22,344 nt of DNA from a virus. The notes beneath the pieces are model-generated. The model was not told where the DNA came from. It made no database searches and was given only the letters and a program-made list of their open reading frames with translations. The stretch spans positions 1-22,344 of the IMG/VR virus record IMGVR_UViG_3300043466_000002; one strand, 5' to 3'. Both the position numbers and the translations under genes were made by a program. This document shows, piece after piece, positions 1 to 17,872 of the stretch. Every line of letters begins with the position of its first letter. Position 1 is the stretch's first letter.

Positions 1-93
1 GCCAGACAAGACAGGAAGGGCGGCGGCAAGCCACCAGCCCTTTACGTCAAAGCCAGCGATCCGCAGGCCGTTGGTTTCAGCTTCCTCGCTCAC
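1..93 (-). CDS. N-terminus of a probable small membrane protein (partial, runs off the left edge)
   Basis: A GTG start at 93 overlaps the TGA stop of the preceding gene in a GTGA arrangement, the same coupling used elsewhere in this operon. The 31 visible codons are fully open to the window edge. They begin MSEEAETNGLRI, followed by a short polar stretch ending in FDVKGWW, and then a hydrophobic run LAAALPVLSG that looks like the start of a membrane segment. I do not recognise a family. Its place after a row of exported proteins makes a holin-like or other small envelope protein a reasonable guess, but this is inference from context only. The alternative is that the GTG is chance and no gene is here. 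Confidence 0.55.
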   Translation of the reverse strand, partial: MSEEAETNGLRIAGFDVKGWWLAAALPVLSG

Positions 94-839
94 GAGCCGT
101 AGCCCGCAGCGTAGACATCCTCCACCGACACAGTGTTGGCTTGCAGCAGCCCTTGCAGGCCGATGCCGAAGGCGTTAGCGCCGGAGATGTTCAGAATGTC
201 AGCCGTGGCGCTGTAGGCCACAGTGGTGCCGTAGAGGCTGGTGCCGCTGTTGGCAGCGTAAGCATCCACCGTCCCGGTCATGGTCGTGTTGCGCGAGGCA
301 GCCAAGAAGGCACCAGCATCGCGGGCATAAGCCTGCACAGCGCCCAGAGCGTTGTTGTAGTTGCTCACGTCTGCGGCGCTGATGGTCATGTCGTTGTTGC
401 TCAAGACAGCCTGCACAACCATCTGCTCCTGCACAGTGTCGGCGTTGGCAGCCATGTTCGCTACCGCCTGCACCTCCATCAGAACCGCAGTCGCGGCAAC
501 GAGGTTATCGACAGCCGAATCGAGATTGACCATTGTTGCGGTGTATTGATCCTGAAACAACAGTTCGGCGTTGTAGTACGTTGCGTCGATCACCCCCTGA
601 ACATCAGAGTTGTAGTCGAGCCGCATCTGTTCGGTGACGCTGGCCGTCTGCATGACGCCCGGTGCGAGGATGTCGCCGTTGCTGGCGCTGTAGATCGCAC
701 CAGCCGTCAGGCTCTGCGAGGCTGTAAGCTGGTCAAGGATTGCTTGGGCTGACCCCTGAAGGTTGGTCATCGTCGGCTCTGCGTGTGCGGCGGAAACGCT
801 CAGACAGAGTAGGGCCAGTGTTCTCTTGAGCAACGACAT
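90..839 (-). CDS. Sec-exported protein of unknown function
   Basis: The 249-residue product starts with a textbook signal peptide: MSLLKR, a hydrophobic core (TLALLCLSVSA) and a probable cleavage site after AHA, near residue 20. The mature part is acidic, rich in Ala, Ser, Thr and Asn, free of cysteine, and has no second membrane segment. It would therefore be periplasmic or released. I recognise no enzyme motif. The start is supported by an AGGAG ribosome binding site about 8 bases upstream (on the complement of 846-856). The first 107 bases overlap the 3' end of the upstream gene in another frame. It probably works with its neighbours in an envelope-targeted cassette; the role is unknown. 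Confidence 0.75.
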   Translation of the reverse strand: MSLLKRTLALLCLSVSAAHAEPTMTNLQGSAQAILDQLTASQSLTAGAIYSASNGDILAPGVMQTASVTEQMRLDYNSDVQGVIDATYYNAELLFQDQYTATMVNLDSAVDNLVAATAVLMEVQAVANMAANADTVQEQMVVQAVLSNNDMTISAADVSNYNNALGAVQAYARDAGAFLAASRNTTMTGTVDAYAANSGTSLYGTTVAYSATADILNISGANAFGIGLQGLLQANTVSVEDVYAAGYGS

Positions 840-1446
840 CAGGTAGCTCCTCGTTCATCATCAGGAAGGCGTCCCAGAACGCCTGATCTTCGGCGTATCC
901 TACCACATAAGTATGGGGTTCGTCACGCATTGCGAGATACCCTTCCCGACCGACCAGCAACTTGCCCGTGGCGATGGAGTAGATCGGGCAGGGTGTGCTG
1001 GCCAGAGCCATCGCTTTGAAGATCGCGGGGCTTTCGCACATGACCGAGATGCCACTGACTTGCAGGCCGAGACCGCCGCTTTCCTGCGGCGTGCCTAAGA
1101 GGCGGGCGTCCTTGCGGCGGTTGCACTCTCGGTCCTGTTCCATCTTGCCCTCGGCTCTGCCGAAGATGCTGACTTGGAAGGCCTGCTGGTAGGGGATGAG
1201 GCAGCTATCGTTGCCACCGCCACCCATGACTGTCGGCGCGGCGGCTGTCGGTACGGGCTGCGAGAAGGGCGAAGACCCGGCACCGTTGTAGTTCTTGGTC
1301 TCACTGGTGGAGACGTTGCCGCTGTCGATGGTTGAGTTGGTGTTGCCGGAGTTGGTGTTCAGATCGCCCGTGACTTGGGCGTTGGCTGTGGCTGTCAGTA
1401 GACAGAGCAGAGCGCACCCATAACGTCCCGCGTTTCGCCAGAGCAT
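733..1446 (-). CDS. Sec-exported cysteine-containing protein, conserved phage envelope-cassette type
   Basis: The frame is open back to 1515, but I choose the ATG at 1446 because it puts a signal peptide at the N-terminus: MLWRNAGR, hydrophobic core CALLCLLTATA, likely cleavage after ANA before QVTG. The product is 237 residues. A Ser/Thr/Asn/Gly-rich linker follows, then a compact domain with four cysteines, in GGNDSC, DRECNRR, VMCESP and STPCP. From memory this Cys and Arg pattern resembles a family seen late in other phage genomes near lysis genes; I cannot name it. The last 50 or so residues (PDVVAQ onward) are charged and look disordered. The start lies inside the upstream lipoprotein gene (52-base overlap) and the end lies inside the next gene (107-base overlap). 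Two disulfides in the periplasm are plausible. Confidence 0.7.
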   Translation of the reverse strand: MLWRNAGRYGCALLCLLTATANAQVTGDLNTNSGNTNSTIDSGNVSTSETKNYNGAGSSPFSQPVPTAAAPTVMGGGGNDSCLIPYQQAFQVSIFGRAEGKMEQDRECNRRKDARLLGTPQESGGLGLQVSGISVMCESPAIFKAMALASTPCPIYSIATGKLLVGREGYLAMRDEPHTYVVGYAEDQAFWDAFLMMNEELPDVVAQENTGPTLSERFRRTRRADDDQPSGVSPSNP

Positions 1447-1610
1447 AGCAACTCGTTGGCCGCGTCTCCGTGCGCCATGTAGTAAAGCGTTTCCGCGTTC
1501 TGTCTGATCTCGCACTGGCGGTCACCTTTCGGGCAGGCCGTCGTGTAGGCCACGGACGATACAGTAACAGGGCCGCAGCCAGCGACCAAGAGGACGAGTA
1601 GCAGTCTCAT
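1395..1610 (-). CDS. Small lipoprotein, possible outer-membrane lysis component
   Basis: The 71-residue product has a short lipoprotein signal, MRLLLVLLVAGC, with the lipobox VAGC and the acylated cysteine at residue 12. The mature 60 residues carry four more cysteines (26, 33, 56, 68), enough for two disulfides. The ATG overlaps the stop of the preceding gene as ATGA. Lambda Rz1 and other o-spanins are small lipoproteins in the same size range, encoded just after or within an inner-membrane coiled-coil partner, and that is the arrangement here. However, o-spanins are usually proline-rich and this one is not, so the spanin idea is tentative. A cysteine-bridged lipoprotein with another envelope role, such as exclusion of a second phage, is an alternative. 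Confidence 0.7.
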   Translation of the reverse strand: MRLLLVLLVAGCGPVTVSSVAYTTACPKGDRQCEIRQNAETLYYMAHGDAANELLCSGETRDVMGALCSVY

Positions 1611-1837
1611 TTACTCATCCCCTGCAAGATGCGGTCGATCTTGGTGTCGAGGCTGTCAATCCGTGACAGCACCCGGTTGATGTCAGCGTGCATGTCGGCC
1701 CGCGTGGCATAGTCCTCGCGCGTCCTGTTGAGCAGGATTTGCAACCGCTTCACCTCGTCCACATGGCTCTTGAGTATCCAGCCGACGACAGCGACGACGC
1801 CTGATAGGACCGCGCTCCAGAGCATCTCAGGTGTCAT
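1607..1837 (-). CDS. Membrane-anchored coiled-coil protein
   Basis: The 76-residue product has one hydrophobic segment (about residues 6-22, within MLWSAVLSGVVAVVGWIL) followed by a charged heptad-rich helix from about residue 27 to the end (VDEVKRLQILLNRTRE and then IDSLDTKIDRIL). This fits a small inner-membrane protein with a coiled coil. It overlaps both neighbours by ATGA (1837 with the upstream stop, 1607-1610 with the lipoprotein start). Small proteins of this build occur near lysis genes of many phages. It could be an i-spanin-like partner of the lipoprotein, although i-spanins are usually about twice as long and the positive charges after the membrane segment do not clearly favour a periplasmic C-terminus. 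Confidence 0.75.
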   Translation of the reverse strand: MTPEMLWSAVLSGVVAVVGWILKSHVDEVKRLQILLNRTREDYATRADMHADINRVLSRIDSLDTKIDRILQGMSK

Positions 1838-3047: not shown

Positions 3048-3304
3048 TAGTTGGCCTCCAGTTGTGCAGCCAGATGCGCCGCGTAGGCCGCCTTAACCGC
3101 GTCAGTGTGGACCGCAGCCACAACAGCTTGCACCTCGGGGCTTTGGCCCGAAGCATCATCCGCAGGGGAGATCACATGCCGATGGTAGTTCCGGCTGATC
3201 TCGACCCCATCGCGCTCAATGATCGTGGCCGTGCGAACCTGAACGTGCTTAAAGGCCCCGACGATCTCGATCTTGTCTTCGACTGTGCGTTCCGTGAGTG
3301 CCAT
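3047..3304 (-). CDS. Small conserved fibre-region protein
   Basis: The 85-residue product begins MALTERTVEDKIEIVG and has the well-kept core FKHVQVRTATIIERDG followed by VEISRNYHRHVISP. I have the impression of similar small proteins beside fibre genes in other phages, without known function. The C-terminal third is Ala-rich helix ending AAQLEAN, almost the same ending as the S74 fibre upstream (KAQLEAN). An AAGGAGA ribosome binding site lies about 6 bases before the ATG. The stop overlaps the next start as TAATG. It is the only gene in the fibre block preceded by a clear gap (45 bases), suggesting it came in as a separate module together with the gene after it. Confidence 0.75.
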   Translation of the reverse strand: MALTERTVEDKIEIVGAFKHVQVRTATIIERDGVEISRNYHRHVISPADDASGQSPEVQAVVAAVHTDAVKAAYAAHLAAQLEAN

Positions 3305-3333
3305 CGTTTATCTCCTTATGGCAGGACTGTCCG

Positions 3334-3350
3334 ACCCCTTGGTGTGGGGT
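3334..3350 (-). promoter_or_regulatory. Weak intergenic hairpin between fibre genes
   Basis: A 5-bp perfect inverted repeat (ACCCC / GGGGT) with a 7-base loop begins at the stop codon of the upstream fibre gene and lies within the 45-base gap. There is no T run after it, so it is not a convincing intrinsic terminator. It may be chance or a minor RNA structure. Confidence 0.25.
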
Positions 3351-3925
3351 TAGGTTTGATATGTTATGCTGAGCTGAACTTCACCAACTGAATTACAGTC
3401 TTGAAGCTGAACTGCAGTCCAAGAAGCGTTGTCGTTGACAAAACGAAGCAATAACTTGTCGAGGTTACCATCAATCGCCACGACGATCTGCTTACCTCCA
3501 CCCGTATCAACGCCCTCAAAAGTTCCAAGAGAACCGCCAGCCCGCGCAGCCGTAATGCCCGCAAAAGGCAGAAATGGTAGGTTGTTGACGTATAGATCGC
3601 CGCTGCCAGACCTAGCCGTCCACACAATCCGAAGGCTCAAGGTAACGCTGTTTCCAATCTTGGTGTAATACGAGTCTCTTGCTCCGTATGTCCAAGTTCC
3701 ACCACCAAAAGTCGGCGTAAACGTCCCCTCCTCATAGTCATCCAGCAGGTTAGCCGAGCCAGAGCCGCCGAGGTAAACGCCGCCTAATTCCGGGGTCGCT
3801 CCAGAGACAACCACAGTCCCCGTCGCATCCGGCAGCGTCAGCGTCCGATCCGTGTTGCTATTGGGCGAGGCGAGGGTGAAGTTCCCCGTGCCAGAGGCGT
3901 TGCCGCTCAGAGTAATACGGGACAT
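3350..3925 (-). CDS. Tail fibre or tip accessory protein
   Basis: The 191-residue product begins MSRITLSGNASGTGNFTLAS, continues with DRTLTLPDATGTVV, a widespread fibre repeat motif, and at about residue 60 has NLLDDYEEGTFTPTF, a motif found at the start of many C-terminal fibre domains. The C-terminal 125 residues look like a beta sandwich (SYYTKIGNSVTLSLRIVW, then GGKQIVVAIDGNLDKLLL). This is probably a receptor-binding or fibre-tip domain encoded as a separate gene. It starts at a TGATG overlap with the S74 fibre. No chaperone domain is visible; folding could rely on the upstream fibre or on the chaperone-like gene at 5884-6306. Confidence 0.75.
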   Translation of the reverse strand: MSRITLSGNASGTGNFTLASPNSNTDRTLTLPDATGTVVVSGATPELGGVYLGGSGSANLLDDYEEGTFTPTFGGGTWTYGARDSYYTKIGNSVTLSLRIVWTARSGSGDLYVNNLPFLPFAGITAARAGGSLGTFEGVDTGGGKQIVVAIDGNLDKLLLRFVNDNASWTAVQLQDCNSVGEVQLSITYQT

Positions 3926-6306: not shown

Positions 6307-9300
6307 TTGAAGAACTCCTCATATTGCAGCGCCATGCCGTAGTAATCGGCCTTGAACCTGTCTCCCGTGTTGGTGCGCTCACTTCTGAAATAGAACTTTG
6401 ATTCTATAGTATCTCCGGCAGCGTAAGCACCGCTTGGCTTGGTAAGCAAACGCGCACGTTGGGTAACAGCGGTAGGGAATGGAGCATAGGTCATGGAGTT
6501 CCTTGCCGCCCAGCCCCAAAGAGGTTGCGCGACAGTGCCACTGACCCTGACAGTGCCATCTGACCTGCGAACAATGATTTCGTGCTTTACAAAGACATAG
6601 CACGCCCTGACCGTTGAACTTGAATTCAACGAAATAACGGTTGGAATAACCTCTAAGATATATGGCTGCAAAAGAATGCGTTCAGGAACGTCTGCATCAG
6701 TTGCGCTCAAGGTAATTGATGTGGACCACATCAAGCGGTCTGCGTTGTAGGTTTCGGGGTCCAAGATCGTGCTGTAGTCCGCAACTACTGAAACGCTACT
6801 GACAGCCCCGTTGGCAATCTTGATGCGCTGCACGGCAAGGTTAGAGATCGCAGCATTTTCGGCTGTAATGGAGTTCGCTGCGATTGCATTCGCCGTGACA
6901 GCCCCCGTCGCGATCTTCGACGCGATGATCGACCCGGCCAAAATCTTGTCAGCCGTGACGGCATCGGTGGCGATCTTGTCTGCTGTGATCTGGCCAGCGG
7001 CGATCTTGGCGCTGACGACGGCGTTGGCCGCGATCTGGTCCGCGTTGACAGCGCCAGCCGCAATCTTGCCAGCGATGACGCTATTGGCCGCCAGCTTGTC
7101 GCTTTCGATGGACCCAGCCGCGATCTTGGCCGCCGTGATGGCGTTGGCTGCAACCTTGTCAGCCGTCACAGCATTGGCCGCGATCTTGTCGGCGGAAATC
7201 GCGCCTGCGCTCACTTTGTCTGCCGTCACCGCGCCAGCATTGATCTGGGTGGCCGTCACGGAGTTGGCCGCAATTTTGCTGGTGGTGATGGCGTTGTCGG
7301 TGATCTGCGTCCCGGTGATCTGCCCGGTAAGATCGGTCGCAGGCACGGCGGCTGTCCACGCAGAGCCTGTGTAGCGATACAACTTGTTGTCTGTCGTCAG
7401 GAGGACGACGCGGCCCTGATAAAGGTCAATCGACGGCAGCGCGGCGACAACCTCAATGGGACGCAGGCCGTTGGAGAACAGTTCAGCCCCGAGCGTGCCG
7501 TCAATGTCGGTGGTGCTGACAGCCGTTGTCCATGCGCCGTCAACCAGACGATACAGCTTGCCGTCAGTGGTCAGAACAACAATCCGAGGCCCTGTATAGC
7601 CAGCCACCGTAGGTAGCGTCGTCACCACCCCGACAGGCTCAATGCCAGCGGCGAAGCTGGCAAATGTCAGAGAGCCAGCCTCAACCGAGGAAGCGGTGTA
7701 GATGTCTGTGGACCAAGACGACGTTGCGGCATCCCAGCGGTAGATCGTGATCTCAGGCAAAAGCAGCACAAGCTGGCCGTCGAAGCCACCTGTAGCTGGC
7801 AGCGACGAAACAGGCTCCACGCCAAACGCTCCAGCCTCGGTAAACAGATCGTTCACAGCTTGGTCGAAGTCCGCAGGTGCGATCAAGAGCGTGGTCGAGT
7901 TGACGGACGCCGTGAATGGCGACTTGTTCAGAGAATAGTCAACCGCTCTGATCCAGTGATAGAGCGTCACGTCATTGGCGAGATTGGCGCGGACAAAGTT
8001 TGAGCCTGACGACTGCCCGATCTGCGTGGCGCTGGCCAGATTGTTGGTCGCGCTTTCCCAGATTTCGACGTGGGCAAAATCCTGATCTGCCGGGTTAATC
8101 CAGCGCAGTTCGATGTATTTCAGACCCGGCGATGATGTCAGGTTCGACGGCGTGCCGGGAGGCGTCGTATCACCGACCGATGCGATAGAATTGGAGATGA
8201 ACGGAGATCGCACGCCAAGCGAGTTTACGGCGCGGACGCGGACAATGTAGTCGTAACCGTTCAAGACGGGCTGGATCAGGAAGCTATTGGTCGTCCCGAG
8301 GACACTAACATACTCCGCATCCGGCGTGATGATTGGCTCGTTTGTAAGCCCCCAATCTTCTGTGGATGTCGCCACCACCGTGATGCTGCCCCAGTTCTCG
8401 CTTTCTGTCTGGGCGTCGGCAATGGAGCCATAATCCTCTTCACCGCCGAGGCGCTTATATTGCACCTCATAGTATTGCACGAAGCGGTCTACCGTGGCCG
8501 TCCAAGACGCACGGATGGCAGGGAGAGCGATGCCATCATCGTTCAGAACAGTTGTGGCCGTGAGAACAAGATCGGACGGCGCTGGCACGGTGTTGAAAAT
8601 CGGCAGCGTGGTGTTGTTACTGATGATCGCCGTCTCGTCGGCATCCCAATCGAAGGCTGCCTCTGATGTTTCGCGCAGGGTCAGTTTAACGCGCAGATCG
8701 CCAGCGTCCTGATCCGCAAAGAACTGCCAGCCGACAACCTCAAACTCTTTTGCAGACCATCCGTATCGGCTGTTGGTAATGCCGACGATATCGCCAACCT
8801 GCACGCCGAAAGCGGCAACGCTAAAGTCTGCGTTCAGGGTGATCTGCTCCCGCCCACGGTTTAGCGTGAGGGCCGCAATGCGCTGAGCGGTGGCCGCAGA
8901 TGTCGTGTAGGGCAGGGTCAGGTCGAGCGGGGTTTCGACGTTGTTGTCCTCGGCAAGATAGGTCGCGCTCGTTATCTCTGGATAGTCAGCAACGATATAA
9001 TCCTGAGACCTGTCGGTGAAGGTGCCGCGCACGACGTTGAACACGTCGGCCATCGACTGCCGGGTCTGCATCTGTATCGGACTGCGGAAGTCATCCAGCG
9101 TGAAGGTCTTGACCGGGCTGGTGTAGTGACCAGCCTTGAGTTGCCAGTTGCCCTGACCCCAGAACAACGTGCCAGCGCAGGCCGTCATCATGTCTTGCAA
9201 CACGCTGCCCGGCGTTTGATCGGCCCGAATGACGCCGTTCATTGTGTACCGCTTTTCCGTGCCACTGGTGGCCAGCGTGACGTTCTCGTCACTGATGTTT

Positions 9301-10073
9301 GCTGCGGCTGCGAAGGTGGTTTCATCCACGCCAACGTCGCCGAGGCCATAGTCCGTGATGATGTAATCACGCACGCAAAGGGCGGCATTGGAGGAGTGGG
9401 CTGTCAGTGCGCTGCGCGGGTCATAGACCTTCTTGCCGTTTACGATGGCGGTGAACAGCGGCATCCCGTTGGGGAATGCGTCTTGGTCATACTCCAAGCG
9501 GATGTAGAGGTAGGCGATCCCAGAGCCGATAAAGCTGCTGTCGATCTGGGCGCTTTCGGCCAAAAGTTCAGCCGGAGCCGCGGTCTGCGATCCCGTGTAC
9601 TTCTTGATCCTGATCTTGCTATTCCAGCTTTGGCTGGTGACGAAGCCATTGGCGTCGAGCGATGCGACCTGATCGTCAATGTAGATGTTGCCGATCGATG
9701 CAACCTCATGGCCCGATAGCGTCAGGATGATGTGCAGATACTCGTTCTGACCGCCCGTGGCTTCCATGTAGGTGATGACGCCACCCTTGCGGACGGTGCC
9801 GTAGACATACTCCTGCGGGGCTGCGGCCTCGCGTGCGTTGACCAGCGTGCCACGGGTTCCAGAAAGATCAGGCTTTGGCGTCAGGGCGGCGACAGCCCAA
9901 GATGTCACAAGTGACACGCCGACATAAACAGCGGCTGAAACCAGGAACGTCCCGACAACGCTGGTGACACCAAGTGCGCCCGCGATGGCCCCAGCGATGG
10001 CAGGAACCCGCACCAAATAGCCCGGATGCGAAAGCGACGTTGTGCCTGTCAGGAGCTTTTTAAGCGGCGTCAT
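6303..10073 (-). CDS. gpJ-like host-specificity / central tail tip protein
   Basis: The 1256-residue product is the largest here, close to lambda J (about 1130). Visible order: an Ala-rich hydrophobic stretch (about 22-66); the gpJ hub region (about 70-480; EYVYGTVRKGG, VRDYIITDYGLG, DQTPGSVLQDMM, NVVRGTFTD); two fibronectin-III-like domains (about 491-634 and 635-730; DTTPPGTPSNL at 635); three 59-residue repeats (751-917; LTTDGKLYR type); fifteen exact decapeptide repeats of the TADKIAANAV type (930-1079); and a unique C-terminal domain (1080-1256) ending ALQYEEFFK, the likely receptor-contact end. It overlaps the upstream gene by 14 bases and has a GGTGAG ribosome binding site. In lambda, J forms the tail tip and binds the receptor; the same role is inferred. 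Confidence 0.92.
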   Translation of the reverse strand: MTPLKKLLTGTTSLSHPGYLVRVPAIAGAIAGALGVTSVVGTFLVSAAVYVGVSLVTSWAVAALTPKPDLSGTRGTLVNAREAAAPQEYVYGTVRKGGVITYMEATGGQNEYLHIILTLSGHEVASIGNIYIDDQVASLDANGFVTSQSWNSKIRIKKYTGSQTAAPAELLAESAQIDSSFIGSGIAYLYIRLEYDQDAFPNGMPLFTAIVNGKKVYDPRSALTAHSSNAALCVRDYIITDYGLGDVGVDETTFAAAANISDENVTLATSGTEKRYTMNGVIRADQTPGSVLQDMMTACAGTLFWGQGNWQLKAGHYTSPVKTFTLDDFRSPIQMQTRQSMADVFNVVRGTFTDRSQDYIVADYPEITSATYLAEDNNVETPLDLTLPYTTSAATAQRIAALTLNRGREQITLNADFSVAAFGVQVGDIVGITNSRYGWSAKEFEVVGWQFFADQDAGDLRVKLTLRETSEAAFDWDADETAIISNNTTLPIFNTVPAPSDLVLTATTVLNDDGIALPAIRASWTATVDRFVQYYEVQYKRLGGEEDYGSIADAQTESENWGSITVVATSTEDWGLTNEPIITPDAEYVSVLGTTNSFLIQPVLNGYDYIVRVRAVNSLGVRSPFISNSIASVGDTTPPGTPSNLTSSPGLKYIELRWINPADQDFAHVEIWESATNNLASATQIGQSSGSNFVRANLANDVTLYHWIRAVDYSLNKSPFTASVNSTTLLIAPADFDQAVNDLFTEAGAFGVEPVSSLPATGGFDGQLVLLLPEITIYRWDAATSSWSTDIYTASSVEAGSLTFASFAAGIEPVGVVTTLPTVAGYTGPRIVVLTTDGKLYRLVDGAWTTAVSTTDIDGTLGAELFSNGLRPIEVVAALPSIDLYQGRVVLLTTDNKLYRYTGSAWTAAVPATDLTGQITGTQITDNAITTSKIAANSVTATQINAGAVTADKVSAGAISADKIAANAVTADKVAANAITAAKIAAGSIESDKLAANSVIAGKIAAGAVNADQIAANAVVSAKIAAGQITADKIATDAVTADKILAGSIIASKIATGAVTANAIAANSITAENAAISNLAVQRIKIANGAVSSVSVVADYSTILDPETYNADRLMWSTSITLSATDADVPERILLQPYILEVIPTVISLNSSSTVRACYVFVKHEIIVRRSDGTVRVSGTVAQPLWGWAARNSMTYAPFPTAVTQRARLLTKPSGAYAAGDTIESKFYFRSERTNTGDRFKADYYGMALQYEEFFK
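6837..7286 (-). repeat. Fifteen tandem decapeptide (30-bp) repeats within the gpJ-like gene
   Basis: Residues 930-1079 are built from fifteen units of exactly ten residues without an insertion. The consensus is T-A-D-K-I-A-A-N/G-A/S-V/I, for example SADKIAANAV, TADKVAANAI, TADKIATDAV. At DNA level this is a degenerate 30-bp tandem array. Hydrophobic residues recur at positions 5 and 10, fitting a trimeric beta-structured or helical stalk. Similar arrays occur in other phage central tail proteins. Confidence 0.9.
7323..7823 (-). repeat. Three 59-residue (177-bp) repeats within the gpJ-like gene
   Basis: Units start at residues 751, 810 and 869, an exact 59-residue spacing. Each begins G-x-x-P-(V/I), continues with LP, a (L/V)VLL or IVVL strand, an IYRW / LYRL / LYRY motif, and a W with Ser/Thr following (SSWS, GAWT, SAWT). 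The third unit runs directly into the decapeptide array. They look like small beta domains stacked on the tail tip shaft. Confidence 0.85.
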
Positions 10074-10500
10074 CGTTTCTCACCCATGCGCTGTCGATGT
10101 ATTCGATGGGGTAATATACCACGCCAGCCTCGGAAAGAAACGCCGCGTTTGATCCGACAGATATTCCAAAGCCAACGCCCATATATCTCGCCTGTATCAC
10201 GCCAGAACTGCCGACGACCAGCGCGCCTCTCGGCGGCACATTGTAGGCCTGCGAAAGACGCTCAGACAGCGCGTCCTCGACATTTTGGTAGCCATACTCC
10301 CGGCGAAGCTGGAAGCGCGTCAGAGGGCGTCCTGCGTCCATGTAACGGCCCGCCAGATCATCGCCCCACCCTTTGCCGTACATGCGCCGGAAAGCTGTGT
10401 TGGTGAAAATCAGGCAATCCCACACGCCCCATTCGAAAGGCCTGTTCGCGACCTCACGCAAGAAGGCGTGCAGCGCCTTTATGCTTCCTTCCTGCCCCAT
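10060..10500 (-). CDS. NlpC/P60-related (DUF6950-like) tail tip protein
   Basis: The 146-residue product contains PFEWGVWDCLIFTNTAFRRM at about 21-40, the D-C motif of the NlpC/P60 and DUF6950 group, with the candidate cysteine at residue 29. It also has the later PRGALVV ... MGVGFGISVG beta motif and ends near IDSAWVR. The only histidine is at residue 11, before the cysteine, so the Cys-His pair of active NlpC/P60 hydrolases is not seen. I therefore expect a structural or weakly active protein. It sits where lambda K/I-type genes lie, just before the gpJ-like gene, and overlaps the previous gene by 22 bases. In lambda-like phages such proteins are part of the tail tip and may help cell wall passage. 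Confidence 0.8.
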   Translation of the reverse strand: MGQEGSIKALHAFLREVANRPFEWGVWDCLIFTNTAFRRMYGKGWGDDLAGRYMDAGRPLTRFQLRREYGYQNVEDALSERLSQAYNVPPRGALVVGSSGVIQARYMGVGFGISVGSNAAFLSEAGVVYYPIEYIDSAWVRNDDAA

Positions 10501-11650: not shown

Positions 11651-13455
11651 TATGCGAAGGCTCCCCCATATGCGCCACCGCGCCGCTTGGCGTCCAAGAC
11701 AGCCGCCTTGGCGCTGTCCGCGATCTGCGGCATCAGCGATTTGATCTCGGCGCGGACGGTCTGCTGCACGCCCGTGGAGACGTTGATATTCTGCACGACA
11801 GTCACGCCGCCGCCGCCAAGTTGGTTATTCGGGATGACCTGCGCGTTGCGCGAAGGCACGACAAGCTCTGGCCCGCGCTCCCCGACCATGTAGGCCTGAC
11901 CGCCAGTGACCGGGCCGCCCATTGCCTTAAAGCCAGCAATGGCAGGTGCCAGAGCCGGGAAGGCCTTTCCAACGACCCCCATGATCCCGTTGACCAGCCG
12001 CTGCACGACCAGAACCTCATAGAGCTTCATGATGATGTTGCGGGCCATGTCGCGGAAGGCGTCCTTGACCGACTTGGTGCCGTCAACCATCGACATGAAG
12101 GCGCTGGAGAAGGATTCGCGGATCGTGTTTGCGATGGCCTTCATGTTCTCTTGCTGCTGGGTCAACTCTTCAGTTGCCGCCTTAGCCGCTCCACCAGCCT
12201 TGTCGGCGGCTTCTGCCGATGCATCGCCGAAGATGTTGACCTCAGTGGTGCCAGCCGCCACAGCATCATTTAATGCCCCGAAGGCCTCTGTGACCCCACC
12301 CCATGCGGACGAAATCTTGGTGCCAGCAGATGCAAATGCCGTGCTTGCTTCGCCTCGCGCCGTCTCCGAAGCTTTATCAAGATCGTTTTGCAACCGCCCG
12401 ACAGATGACAGAGACCCAAGAACCGCACTATTCACGTCATCAAGGCCAGCCTCTCCAGAAGACCTAGCGATAGTTTCCAAGAAACTATACCAAGTCCCAA
12501 CAAGTCCAGAAACCATGCTGGTAAAACCAGCCTTGATGGTCATCCAAACCCCAGAAAGCGCATCTGGTATTGCTTTGGCGCTATCTACCATGCCCTGCCA
12601 AACAGCCCCGACGAGATCGCCAAGCAGCTTCATGGCCTCGCCAAAACCACCAGCGCCTTCCTTGAGGCGCAAGAAAATTTCAATCAGTTTGGCCAAGCCG
12701 ACGAGAAGCGCCACTGGTAGCAGCTTCATCAGGATCGCACCGACAGCAGCGAAAGCAGCGCCGACAGTCATCGCTGTGGCCCGCAAGAAGATCAGCGCGC
12801 TAGAGAAAGAGCCAGCAGAGATCGCAGATGCCACTACGGCGGCCCTGAAGGTGACCATTGCCGATGCGAATAGGCCAGAGGCCCCAGTAGCCGCAAGCAT
12901 CGCAGGCACAGACCTGATCGCCATCGCGCCAGCAAAGAGACCCACCGCGATGATCGCCGTGTCGATCTCACCAGATAGATTGCCAAAAACAGAGCCGAGC
13001 GCGGCACCAGCCTGCTTGACCGCATCTGCCACCGCTCCTAGCGGAGCCTGAAGCACGCCAAGAGCAGAGCCAAGGTTTTCGATCTCACTGCCAGATTTCT
13101 GGGCAACAACGCCCAATGCCGCCACGACGGCGACAACGGCACCGATCACGGCACCAGCCGGGCCGAAGATTTGCAGAAGCTGCGGTGCCTGCTGACCGAA
13201 TGCCTGCAAGCCGTTGGTGCCGTTGGCCACCTGAACCGCGAAGTCGCCGATCTGGAAGCCAGCCTGCTGAAGCGCGCCTTTTGCCCACTTCTGGGTTGCC
13301 GTGTTGGCAAGGCCAGATGCTTGGGCAAAGCCCCTCATGCTGGAGTTGGCTGTGTTGATGGTGGCCGCAGTGCGGGTGACCTGAGCCTGAACGGCCTTCA
13401 ACGGCGCAGTAGCGCGGTCGATGGCCTGCAACTCAAATACGAGTCTTTCGCTCAT
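11650..13455 (-). CDS. Tape measure protein
   Basis: The 601-residue product begins MSERLVFELQAIDRATAPLK, typical of tape measures. It contains a hydrophobic segment (about 96-118) and an extended Ala-rich hydrophobic region (about 165-260), then helical stretches (RESFSSAFMSMVDGTKSVKDAF), and near residue 513 the diagnostic C-terminal signature GGPVTGGQAY / VGERGPELVVP. Tape measure length sets tail length; at the usual 0.15 nm per residue, 601 residues suggest a tail of about 90 nm, shorter than lambda (853 residues). The gene starts inside the end of the frameshifted gpGT frame (23-base overlap), as in lambda H. It ends in TAATG with the next gene. Confidence 0.95.
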   Translation of the reverse strand: MSERLVFELQAIDRATAPLKAVQAQVTRTAATINTANSSMRGFAQASGLANTATQKWAKGALQQAGFQIGDFAVQVANGTNGLQAFGQQAPQLLQIFGPAGAVIGAVVAVVAALGVVAQKSGSEIENLGSALGVLQAPLGAVADAVKQAGAALGSVFGNLSGEIDTAIIAVGLFAGAMAIRSVPAMLAATGASGLFASAMVTFRAAVVASAISAGSFSSALIFLRATAMTVGAAFAAVGAILMKLLPVALLVGLAKLIEIFLRLKEGAGGFGEAMKLLGDLVGAVWQGMVDSAKAIPDALSGVWMTIKAGFTSMVSGLVGTWYSFLETIARSSGEAGLDDVNSAVLGSLSSVGRLQNDLDKASETARGEASTAFASAGTKISSAWGGVTEAFGALNDAVAAGTTEVNIFGDASAEAADKAGGAAKAATEELTQQQENMKAIANTIRESFSSAFMSMVDGTKSVKDAFRDMARNIIMKLYEVLVVQRLVNGIMGVVGKAFPALAPAIAGFKAMGGPVTGGQAYMVGERGPELVVPSRNAQVIPNNQLGGGGVTVVQNINVSTGVQQTVRAEIKSLMPQIADSAKAAVLDAKRRGGAYGGAFA

Positions 13456-15376: not shown

Positions 15377-16612
15377 TTAGGTTTCGTCGTTGTTGTAGGC
15401 GAAGGACACAGCGTGACGAACCGCCACATCGACCGTCTGGAGGGCGCGGATGCGAACCGTACCCGAAGACGAAGCGGTGTAGGGATCGACGAGGATGTCC
15501 AAGCCGCCATACATGCCGATCAGCAGGTCCGAGAAGTTGCCGAAGAACAAGTCGCCAGCGGTGACTTGGTTCGAGACAATCGCACGGTAGCCGTTGATCG
15601 TGTTGCCCGGCTGCTCGACCACGAAGAGACCCTGACCAGAGGCCTTGGCGGTGGTCTTCAGCGCGCCATACATGCCAGCAGGCAGGATGTACGCGAGGTT
15701 GCCCAGCAGAGCGTTGTCCTCGGCCACAGCGGTTTCCAGAGCCACGACTTCAGCGAAGGTCGGGTTGGCAGCCGCGAAGGCGGTCGGCTTGTTGACGCCC
15801 GAGGTCGCCTTGATGCCCGTGGGCTGGCCCGAGGAACCAGTGCCACGCAGGCCGCCCGCGTCGATGGCGAGAGCGATAGCACGCGACAGGTCGTCACGAA
15901 CCAGAGCTTCGATATCGGGCGAGGACTGCTGCATCATCAAGCGGGTGATGTCGGTGAAGGCACCAAGCACCTTGGGCGACATCGTGACCTGACCGAAGGT
16001 CGGCTCCGACTCAGACGCAGCGCCACCTTCCGACGAAATCCAGCCAGCGGAAGCGCCAGCAGTCTTCTTCGGAATGGCCACGTTGCCCTTGAGGCCGTTC
16101 AGCATGGTCGCGCCAGCCTGCATCACAGACGAAGCGTTACGCAGAACGTCGATGAAGTCACCGCCACGGAAGTCCTGCGCGATCACGCTGGAATCGTCCG
16201 AGGTGTTCAGGTCACGCTTTGCCCACGAGCGCAGAACGTCGCCGGGGATCATCAGACCCTTGGCATCGACGCCAGCAGCACGTTGAGCAGCAGCCGAAGC
16301 TTCGAATTCGAAGCGGGCTTCTTCCTGAGCGCGGAAGTCGGTCGGGTTCGCCATAGCGCGGATCGCAGCCATGAGCGAGAACTTGCGGACCTCTTTCTGG
16401 GTCAGGCCGATGTTGGCCGTTTCCAGAGGCTTGTTGCCGATTGCTTCCAGCAGTTCGCCACGGAATTCCGCGAGAGAACGGCCAGCAGCGATGGCCTTTT
16501 CAGCCAGATCACGCTTGTTGTGCGATGCGCCGAGACGGATCATCTCGCCAGCATCTTTGGCAGCGGCACGGGCAGCTTCGGCCTTGACCGCGTCCAGATC
16601 AAATTCAGCCAT
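15377..16612 (-). CDS. Major capsid protein from an internal start (nested in the protease-capsid fusion)
   Basis: An ATG at 16612 (residue 421 of the fusion) is preceded by a consensus ribosome binding site AAGGAGG with a 5-base spacer. Translation from it yields 411 residues beginning MAEFDLDAVKAEAARAAAKD: exactly the capsid part with its helical, scaffold-like N-terminal arm (421 to about 550 of the fusion). Length is normal for an HK97-type capsid protein before maturation. I infer that most capsid subunits start here, while the weaker upstream start gives the few protease-linked copies. The nested-start principle is known for lambda C/Nu3, though there the nested product is a scaffold, not the capsid. 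Confidence 0.8.
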   Translation of the reverse strand: MAEFDLDAVKAEAARAAAKDAGEMIRLGASHNKRDLAEKAIAAGRSLAEFRGELLEAIGNKPLETANIGLTQKEVRKFSLMAAIRAMANPTDFRAQEEARFEFEASAAAQRAAGVDAKGLMIPGDVLRSWAKRDLNTSDDSSVIAQDFRGGDFIDVLRNASSVMQAGATMLNGLKGNVAIPKKTAGASAGWISSEGGAASESEPTFGQVTMSPKVLGAFTDITRLMMQQSSPDIEALVRDDLSRAIALAIDAGGLRGTGSSGQPTGIKATSGVNKPTAFAAANPTFAEVVALETAVAEDNALLGNLAYILPAGMYGALKTTAKASGQGLFVVEQPGNTINGYRAIVSNQVTAGDLFFGNFSDLLIGMYGGLDILVDPYTASSSGTVRIRALQTVDVAVRHAVSFAYNNDET

Positions 16613-17872
16613 TTTGGCCTCCTTGATAGGGGTTGCAGGGATAGAGGTGGTCAGGTCGTCCGCCGCCGATCTGCCAACGCCCACTGTCCTGTCGGCGGGG
16701 ATAGAAACGATGGAAACTTCCATAGGCATCCAAGAAGTGGCTCGGTACGTTTCCTTGCCTTCCTTGTCGAGTTTGTTGATCTGATAGCCGACCGAGATGT
16801 TGGCTCGGATGCCATCAGTCACGTCATCGAAAACCTCTTTGGCAAGCCCGTTTCTCCCGAAACGAACAGTCGCACGGAGACGCCGTGCCGAGCCATCCAA
16901 GGCAACCGATTCTACAACGCCGATCTGCTTGGTCGGATCGTGATCCAGCAGAAGAGGCGCTCGGCCAGAATTCAAGAACGACAGATCGATGCTGCCGGGC
17001 TTGTGGTCGAGGATTTCAATGCCGAAGGACCGCTCAACGGGTTCCTCGGACGAGACAGCGATCTTGACGCGCCGGGCGTCACCATCGATCACCTTGTCTT
17101 CAAATGCCATCGCACGGGTTTCGATCCCGTCACGCGAATAACGCTCGGCCTGAAGCTCAAGATCATCCTCTTGCGCCTCGGTCGGTTCGATGTGTTCTTC
17201 TTCCAGCATCGCTGCGTCCTCCATTTCACGGGCGATCATATCAAACTCACCCCCATCTTGCATAGAGCGCGCTTCTTCGGTGGCAGGCTCAAACTCAATC
17301 GGCTCAAAGTTATTGCGATCCAGCCATGCCCGAGCCTCTGCCACAGTGAAGAACTGGGTGCGGAAACGGATCGCCTGAATCTCGCTGGTGTCGTCCTTGA
17401 TGCCGAAGATGTAGTCAACGCCCCGGCCACCGCCGTTGTTGCGACGGCGGAAGCTGTCGTATTGGCGAGGATCGCGGATGCGGGCAGCATGTTCATTCGC
17501 GTAAGGACGCTCACCAGCAGCGCGGGTGCGGTCATCCTCATCATCCATGTCTTCGTCCTCATCGTCCATGTCGTCAACGATGCCATCGGCCCATGACTTG
17601 CCTGCATCGCCTCCCCAGAGCGCCCACGCGATCCGGCCATTCGACGGATATCCATCTTCACCGGGCCGGAAACCTTGAGCCTCTTTGTCCACCTCATGGC
17701 GGGCGAAGAAGCTCTTCATGCGCTTGACAGTGCTGTCAGAAAGCTCCTTGCCGTTCACGATGTCACGGGCGCGGGCAATGCCGACCTCGGTGCCACCGCG
17801 CCCGAACTCACGCCGCCAATCAAGGCCGCGCTGGGCTTCTTCCTTCATCTCCCCGGTCGGCTCATAGGACAT
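15377..17872 (-). CDS. Four-part fusion: accessory domains + HK97-type prohead protease + HK97-fold major capsid protein
   Basis: The product is 831 residues. (a) About 1-95: a domain with RGLDWRREFGRGGTEVGIAR and GRIAWALWGGDAG, seen in other phage and prophage head proteins. (b) An acidic linker (99-114, Asp/Glu/Met). (c) About 120-200: YANEHAARIRDP, GVDYIFGIK, IQAIRFRTQFFTVAEARAWL, another accessory domain that tends to travel with head proteases. (d) About 250-405: prohead protease with LLLDHDPTKQIG (His311), RANISVGYQ (Ser360) and MEVSIVSIPADR. (e) 421-831: HK97-type capsid with SWAKRDLNTSDDSS, IPKKTAG, a WISSEGG loop, DIEALVRDDLSRAIA, TGSSGQPTGI and C-terminal FAYNNDET. It follows the portal stop by 2 bases with a weak site (GGTGGAG). 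It should cleave head proteins during maturation. Free capsid is probably made from the internal start at 16612. Confidence 0.92.
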   Translation of the reverse strand: MSYEPTGEMKEEAQRGLDWRREFGRGGTEVGIARARDIVNGKELSDSTVKRMKSFFARHEVDKEAQGFRPGEDGYPSNGRIAWALWGGDAGKSWADGIVDDMDDEDEDMDDEDDRTRAAGERPYANEHAARIRDPRQYDSFRRRNNGGGRGVDYIFGIKDDTSEIQAIRFRTQFFTVAEARAWLDRNNFEPIEFEPATEEARSMQDGGEFDMIAREMEDAAMLEEEHIEPTEAQEDDLELQAERYSRDGIETRAMAFEDKVIDGDARRVKIAVSSEEPVERSFGIEILDHKPGSIDLSFLNSGRAPLLLDHDPTKQIGVVESVALDGSARRLRATVRFGRNGLAKEVFDDVTDGIRANISVGYQINKLDKEGKETYRATSWMPMEVSIVSIPADRTVGVGRSAADDLTTSIPATPIKEAKMAEFDLDAVKAEAARAAAKDAGEMIRLGASHNKRDLAEKAIAAGRSLAEFRGELLEAIGNKPLETANIGLTQKEVRKFSLMAAIRAMANPTDFRAQEEARFEFEASAAAQRAAGVDAKGLMIPGDVLRSWAKRDLNTSDDSSVIAQDFRGGDFIDVLRNASSVMQAGATMLNGLKGNVAIPKKTAGASAGWISSEGGAASESEPTFGQVTMSPKVLGAFTDITRLMMQQSSPDIEALVRDDLSRAIALAIDAGGLRGTGSSGQPTGIKATSGVNKPTAFAAANPTFAEVVALETAVAEDNALLGNLAYILPAGMYGALKTTAKASGQGLFVVEQPGNTINGYRAIVSNQVTAGDLFFGNFSDLLIGMYGGLDILVDPYTASSSGTVRIRALQTVDVAVRHAVSFAYNNDET
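16618..16624 (-). promoter_or_regulatory. Internal ribosome binding site for the major capsid protein
   Basis: AAGGAGG, a full match to the anti-Shine-Dalgarno core, is located inside the fusion reading frame where it also encodes part of IKEAK. It is 5 bases before the ATG at 16612 and lies exactly at the protease/capsid domain boundary, which makes chance unlikely. Confidence 0.85.

Follow-up and report, generated by a model that had tools for sequence, protein, structure and literature searches.

The analysed window is an entire IMG/VR record of 22,344 bases, so no sequence of this genome lies to the left of position 1. It covers the minus-strand late region of a lambda-like siphovirus, with a GpA-type terminase, a lambda-type portal, a protease-capsid fusion encoded in a single frame (Table 1), tail genes, fibre genes with an S74 chaperone, and a tail-fibre assembly chaperone. 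Five envelope genes at positions 1-1837 are the last before the left edge. A sequence-only reading had described them as overlapping and envelope-targeted, and we find all five frames present on the minus strand. The cut gene at the edge reads VSEEAETNGLRIAGFDVKGWWLAAALPVLSG, and its 31 residues match the start of a 143-aa TM/coiled-coil protein that is complete in relatives.

Table 1. Genes of the window and of related loci referred to in the text
Locus	Product	Positions	Strand	Features
Window	76-aa protein	1607-1837	-	N-terminal TM segment, then heptad-rich coil; accessory
Window	71-aa lipoprotein	1395-1610	-	lipobox LVAGC, five Cys; o-spanin-like candidate
Window	237-aa exported protein	733-1446	-	signal peptide ..TATANA/Q, N/S/T-rich linker, four-Cys domain
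Window	249-aa exported protein	90-839	-	signal peptide ..AAHA/EP, helical bundle and small C-terminal beta part, no Cys
Window	143-aa inner-membrane protein, first 31 residues	1-93	-	cut by record end; i-spanin-like candidate
Window	831-aa fusion protein	15377-17872	-	Peptidase_S78 prohead protease and major capsid protein
L003	143-aa protein			TM and coil; follows the 249-aa gene
L003	63-aa protein	9031-9222		single TM, four Cys (YRYPCQDPANW..ECxPPIC), no family match
L003	93-aa protein			two hydrophobic segments, holin-like
L003	71-aa small protein			
L003	135-aa nuclease-like exported protein	9709-10116		thermonuclease-like, signal-peptide-like N-terminus
L003	290-aa endolysin			GH19-like and PG-binding
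L083, L084 (CRP-810, CRP-207)	deposited 'lysozymes'	12647-13069, 3292-3873		143-aa TM/coiled-coil family
L193	exported protein at the place of the 249-aa protein	6473-8110		no family match
L188	exported protein at the place of the 249-aa protein	6497-8041		no family match
L239	exported protein at the place of the 249-aa protein	6488-8080		no family match
L088 (CRP-207)	538-aa protein among tail genes	24210-25826	-	transglycosylase-like and GH19/endolysin-like regions
L115	two-TM holin-like protein	11778-12080		EF-hand-like motif near N-terminus

Compared with 103 relatives, mismatches are concentrated at codon position 3 (rates at positions 1/2/3 are 0.069/0.033/0.251 for the 71-aa gene, 0.148/0.087/0.319 for the 237-aa gene, and 0.131/0.081/0.292 for the 249-aa gene), and we therefore regard the frames as real genes. 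The 237-aa gene can also be read as a longer, 260-aa ORF starting at 1515. Substitutions in the stretch 1447-1515 track the 71-aa frame (0.101/0.045/0.286) rather than the 260-aa one; because the constraint between both starts is that of the 71-aa frame, the start at 1515 was rejected, and this pattern fits a 237-aa product starting at 1446. When the cassette proteins were scanned against Pfam, PHROG, NCBIfam, and PADLOC, a functional family was returned only for the endolysin and the nuclease that relatives encode.

Relatives were collected with the 249-aa protein (99 found, 80 kept) and with a profile of the 237-aa protein (at least 583 confirmed IMG/VR stretches, 80 kept). The gene order 71-237-249-143 and its overlaps are invariant in about 150 viral loci of unrelated virion types. 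The 71- and 237-aa genes overlap in 117/117 loci (median 52 nt), the 237- and 249-aa genes in 108/108 (median 107 nt), and the 249- and 143-aa genes in 116 of 123 (median 4 nt). This core is found in lambda-like siphovirus (this record), P22/T7-like podovirus, and HMO-2011-type backgrounds; in MW202675 it is accompanied by a P22-like stabilisation protein and internal virion proteins. Roseobacter phage CRP-810 (gp53-gp51) carries the core, as does CRP-207 (gp75-gp73), which belongs to the HMO-2011-type group (PMC9038755), and their homologues of the 237- and 249-aa proteins share 36-61% identity with ours. The deposited records label the core genes as OmpA family protein (the 237-aa homologue of CRP-810), lysozyme, or hypothetical, and leave the lipoprotein gene unannotated. 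We rejected the lysozyme label of CRP-810 gp51 and CRP-207 gp73, which are TM-coiled-coil proteins with no glycosidase match and fall into the 143-aa family (Table 1).

A variant of the core occurs in pelagiphage-type loci, where the 237-like and 143-like genes are kept, a separate lipoprotein gene is missing, and the 249-aa protein gives way to a larger exported one of about 400-580 aa (three examples of roughly 510-550 aa are listed in Table 1). The 237-like proteins of these phages end in a C-terminal hydrophobic tail in 64 of 83 cases. Two short-pattern-dependent scans did not find the core in 84,980 bacterial/archaeal species genomes or in prophages.

The family of the 71-aa lipoprotein has a lipobox in 140 of 148 members, four conserved Cys residues in the mature part, and never an Asp at position +2 after the lipid-carrying Cys, from which sorting to the outer membrane is expected. 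Exactly four mature Cys residues are likewise present in 117 of 120 members of the 237-aa family. A profile-profile comparison of the two families gave 94.5% (hhalign), and a search with the lipoprotein HMM hit pelagiphage 237 proteins 82 times (best 1.4e-8). One four-Cys domain is thus common to the lipoprotein and the 237-aa exported protein. Structure prediction, which had been proposed for both exported proteins, succeeded for one of them: the AlphaFold2 model of the 249-aa protein (pLDDT 86) shows long helices packed in a bundle and a small beta part, whereas that of the 237-aa protein (pLDDT 54) was too poor for a structure search. The 249-aa model matches only unnamed viral proteins and has no PDB match with E <= 0.001 (best E 0.07), and PDB sequence-profile searches with both proteins gave no match. 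Cys is absent throughout the 249-aa family (136/136). In the 143-aa family, also devoid of Cys, 134 of 136 members have a hydrophobic segment at the N-terminus; the predicted coiled coil after it varies in length (whole proteins of 137-226 aa), and by a weak charge rule, the positive flank is N-terminal in 73, tied in 59, and C-terminal in 4, a slight N-in bias. Of the 138 loci with enough upstream sequence, 82 have the 76-aa gene directly 5' of the lipoprotein gene and 87 have it within 1.5 kb; 50, HMO-2011-type ones among them, have no match to it. The charge pattern of the 76-aa protein suggests, by the same weak rule, a cytoplasmic coil.

The window indeed shows neither a holin nor an endolysin, but this is not biology. 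In the near-identical relative L003, whose 249-aa protein is 96% identical and whose upstream tail-fibre gene is the same, the 249-aa gene is followed by six genes that end with an endolysin (Table 1, in gene order). The homologous endolysin of L004 matches PHROG 181 'endolysin' (E 1.5e-64) as well as PG_binding_1. Looking beyond the left edge through relatives, as had been advised, we found a GH19-type endolysin and a two-TM holin-like gene in all 52 close relatives whose sequence continues for 4.5 kb or more after the 143-aa gene. The missing endolysin is therefore an effect of truncation, and a biological lack was rejected, since the record ends there and relatives carry the gene within 4.5 kb. 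Searching whole records with Pfam GH19 was insensitive, as it missed the L004 endolysin found with PHROG 181, and it was not used to argue for absence. Most close relatives, like L003, have a gene after the holin-like ones and before the GH19 endolysin whose thermonuclease-like product starts with a signal-peptide-like segment.

More distant loci combine the core with other lysis genes. In L156 it is followed by PF11351 GTA_holin_3TM (3e-16) and PF05838 GH108 (7e-27). The reduced version precedes a GH24 lysozyme in pelagiphages; in the pelagiphage-type locus L193, the 237-like, 545-aa, and 143-like genes are followed by PF00959 lysozyme (5e-12) and PF11351 GTA_holin_3TM (2e-8), and HTVC023P encodes a PF08291 M15 peptidase (1e-14), which lies four genes beyond the 237-like one. 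The core thus usually, but not always, travels with holin and endolysin. In CRP-810 its neighbours are a fibre gene on one side and the capsid gene on the other; holin and endolysin, in a 2TM - 3TM holin - GH108 trio of the same kind, lie about 23 kb away. In HMO-2011-type loci (CRP-207 and many marine ones) the core precedes TerS/TerL, and we found no endolysin beside it. Because lysis genes adjoin the core in most but not all loci, we treat it as a unit of its own. CRP-207 encodes a 538-aa protein among its tail genes (Table 1), possibly a virion lysin.

Known spanins consist of two proteins or one, with i- and o-spanin genes usually adjacent, and require an outer-membrane lipoprotein together with an inner-membrane protein that has a periplasmic domain. 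In the core, these parts would be played by the 71-aa lipoprotein, with its lipobox and lack of an inner-membrane retention Asp at +2, and by the 143-aa protein. The lipoprotein gene is the best lipoprotein candidate in MW202675 and CRP-810; CRP-207 has one other lipobox ORF, which lies within the DNA polymerase gene in another frame and probably arose by chance. Together, the two proteins have an estimated periplasmic length of about 165 aa, inside the 62-300 residues of known spanin pairs, of which 507 of 528 carry Cys (PMC6139136), as the mature lipoprotein does. The scanned cassette proteins match no spanin in Pfam, PHROG, or NCBIfam, and the Rz family PF03245 was not found in 30 related records; 91 of 677 surveyed phages have no recognisable spanin (PMC6139136). 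As the 71- and 143-aa proteins fit spanin roles by prediction and PF03245 is missing from those 30 records, we tentatively read the core as a spanin-like lysis arm.

The likeness to lambda Rz/Rz1 and T4 PseT.3/PseT.2 lies in the predicted pairing of an inner-membrane coiled-coil protein with a small, Cys-bearing outer-membrane lipoprotein, in the linkage to lysis genes, and in the overlapping frames. Unlike these pairs, to which we found no sequence relation, the core encodes two extra exported proteins between the two candidates in all loci, and its lipoprotein domain is duplicated in one of them. Where it sits far from holin and endolysin, it resembles T4, whose spanin genes also lie apart from them (PMC6139136). 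The downstream half of the cassette in relatives is of the same kind as the GH19/GH108/GH24 cassettes with GTA_holin_3TM or a two-TM holin in phages of alphaproteobacteria; in the papers we found, no upstream envelope module is described with those.

In the proposed scheme, the upstream half of the cassette, cut by the record end, would encode its envelope arm. The 71-aa protein would be held in the outer membrane by its lipid and the 143-aa protein in the inner membrane, its coiled coil reaching into the periplasm, and the exported 237-aa (four-Cys) and 249-aa (helical) proteins would connect or regulate the two. Once the downstream holin and GH19 endolysin had removed the cell wall, the complex of all four could disrupt, perhaps fuse, the outer membrane, doing the job of a spanin without kinship to known ones. 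Membership of the genes in the lysis block, judged apart from any mechanism, is likely, and the link to lysis is well supported. Its spanin-like action we infer, and we see about even chances that the genes at 1-1837 are the outer-membrane arm of the cassette acting in this way. Speaking against such an arm are the HMO-2011-type and CRP-810 cores without an adjoining endolysin, the number of four proteins, the non-adjacent i- and o-spanin candidates, and the missing match to known spanins. The suggestion of a non-standard lysis system survives to the extent that the five genes form the upstream half of a lysis block, with endolysin and holin-like gene past the edge in relatives.

If the 76-aa (TM and coil) and 71-aa proteins were instead an ordinary i-/o-spanin pair, the 237-, 249-, and 143-aa proteins would do something else. 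The order and 4-nt overlap of the two adjacent genes are those of two-component spanins and their combined length is in the known range, but the 76-aa gene is absent from HMO-2011-type loci, where 71-237-249-143 stays together. With its charge pattern also pointing, if weakly, to a cytoplasmic coil and the 71-aa protein sharing a domain with the 237-aa protein, we consider such a pair unlikely. A function in lysis timing, with periplasmic proteins that sense the state of the envelope and hold or release holin or endolysin in the manner of T4 RI, would suit exported, Cys-rich proteins encoded directly 5' of holin-like genes, and the cassette contains a further TM/four-Cys protein of 63 aa. The core is, however, found with GH19 and GH108 endolysins, its reduced form with GH24 or M15 ones, and the holins are of two-TM as well as three-TM type, which makes a specific holin partner unlikely; timing control also leaves the outer-membrane lipoprotein and inner-membrane coiled coil unexplained, and appears rather unlikely to us.

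The sequence-only reading had also raised the blocking of superinfection. A module that changes the envelope and blocks the receptor or entry of rival phages, like T5 Llp or the lambdoid Cor lipoproteins, could well include a small lipoprotein adjoining tail-fibre genes and exported partners with no enzyme motif. Yet this module does not vary among phages whose fibres and hosts are unrelated, lies in a late gene block with an endolysin, matches no defence or conversion family in PADLOC or NCBIfam, and shows no sign of lysogenic conversion in the two short-pattern-dependent scans of the 84,980 genomes, so that exclusion now seems quite improbable. We give similarly little credence to virion or genome-injection components forming a trans-envelope channel or associated with ejection. 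The core does often adjoin tail-fibre or terminase genes, as in CRP-810 between fibre and capsid, and coiled-coil TM proteins could line a channel, but Sec signals (237 and 249) and a lipobox (71) would remove the proteins from the cytoplasm, where virions assemble, and the core is common to phages with lambda-like, P22/T7-like, and HMO-2011-type particles. We found no published proteomics or genetics of these proteins in the literature searched. Holin, endolysin, and spanin genes elsewhere, combined with evidence for virion components, had been named as what would speak against the original proposal; endolysin and holin-like genes were found in relatives, together with neither a classical spanin nor evidence for virion components.

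Extending the spanin-like reading beyond this record, we tentatively suggest, while giving it less than even chances, that the four proteins form an outer-membrane disruption machine with no kinship to Rz/Rz1, unimolecular spanins, or disruptins. Many of the phages that are most abundant in fresh and marine waters would rely on it, namely those of HMO-2011 and CRP-810 type and, with a variant of it, pelagiphages. The module occurs in at least 583 IMG/VR loci and in cultured phages of dominant marine bacteria, with its genes unnamed or miscalled lysozyme or OmpA. If it performs the outer-membrane step, it closes the spanin gap in abundant aquatic phages; the cultured Roseobacter phages make this testable. 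CRP-810 gp33, CRP-207 gp72, and a protein of L115 (Table 1) are two-TM holin-like proteins with a calcium-binding EF-hand-like motif (DxNGNGxxD or similar) near the N-terminus and are possibly calcium-sensing lysis proteins.
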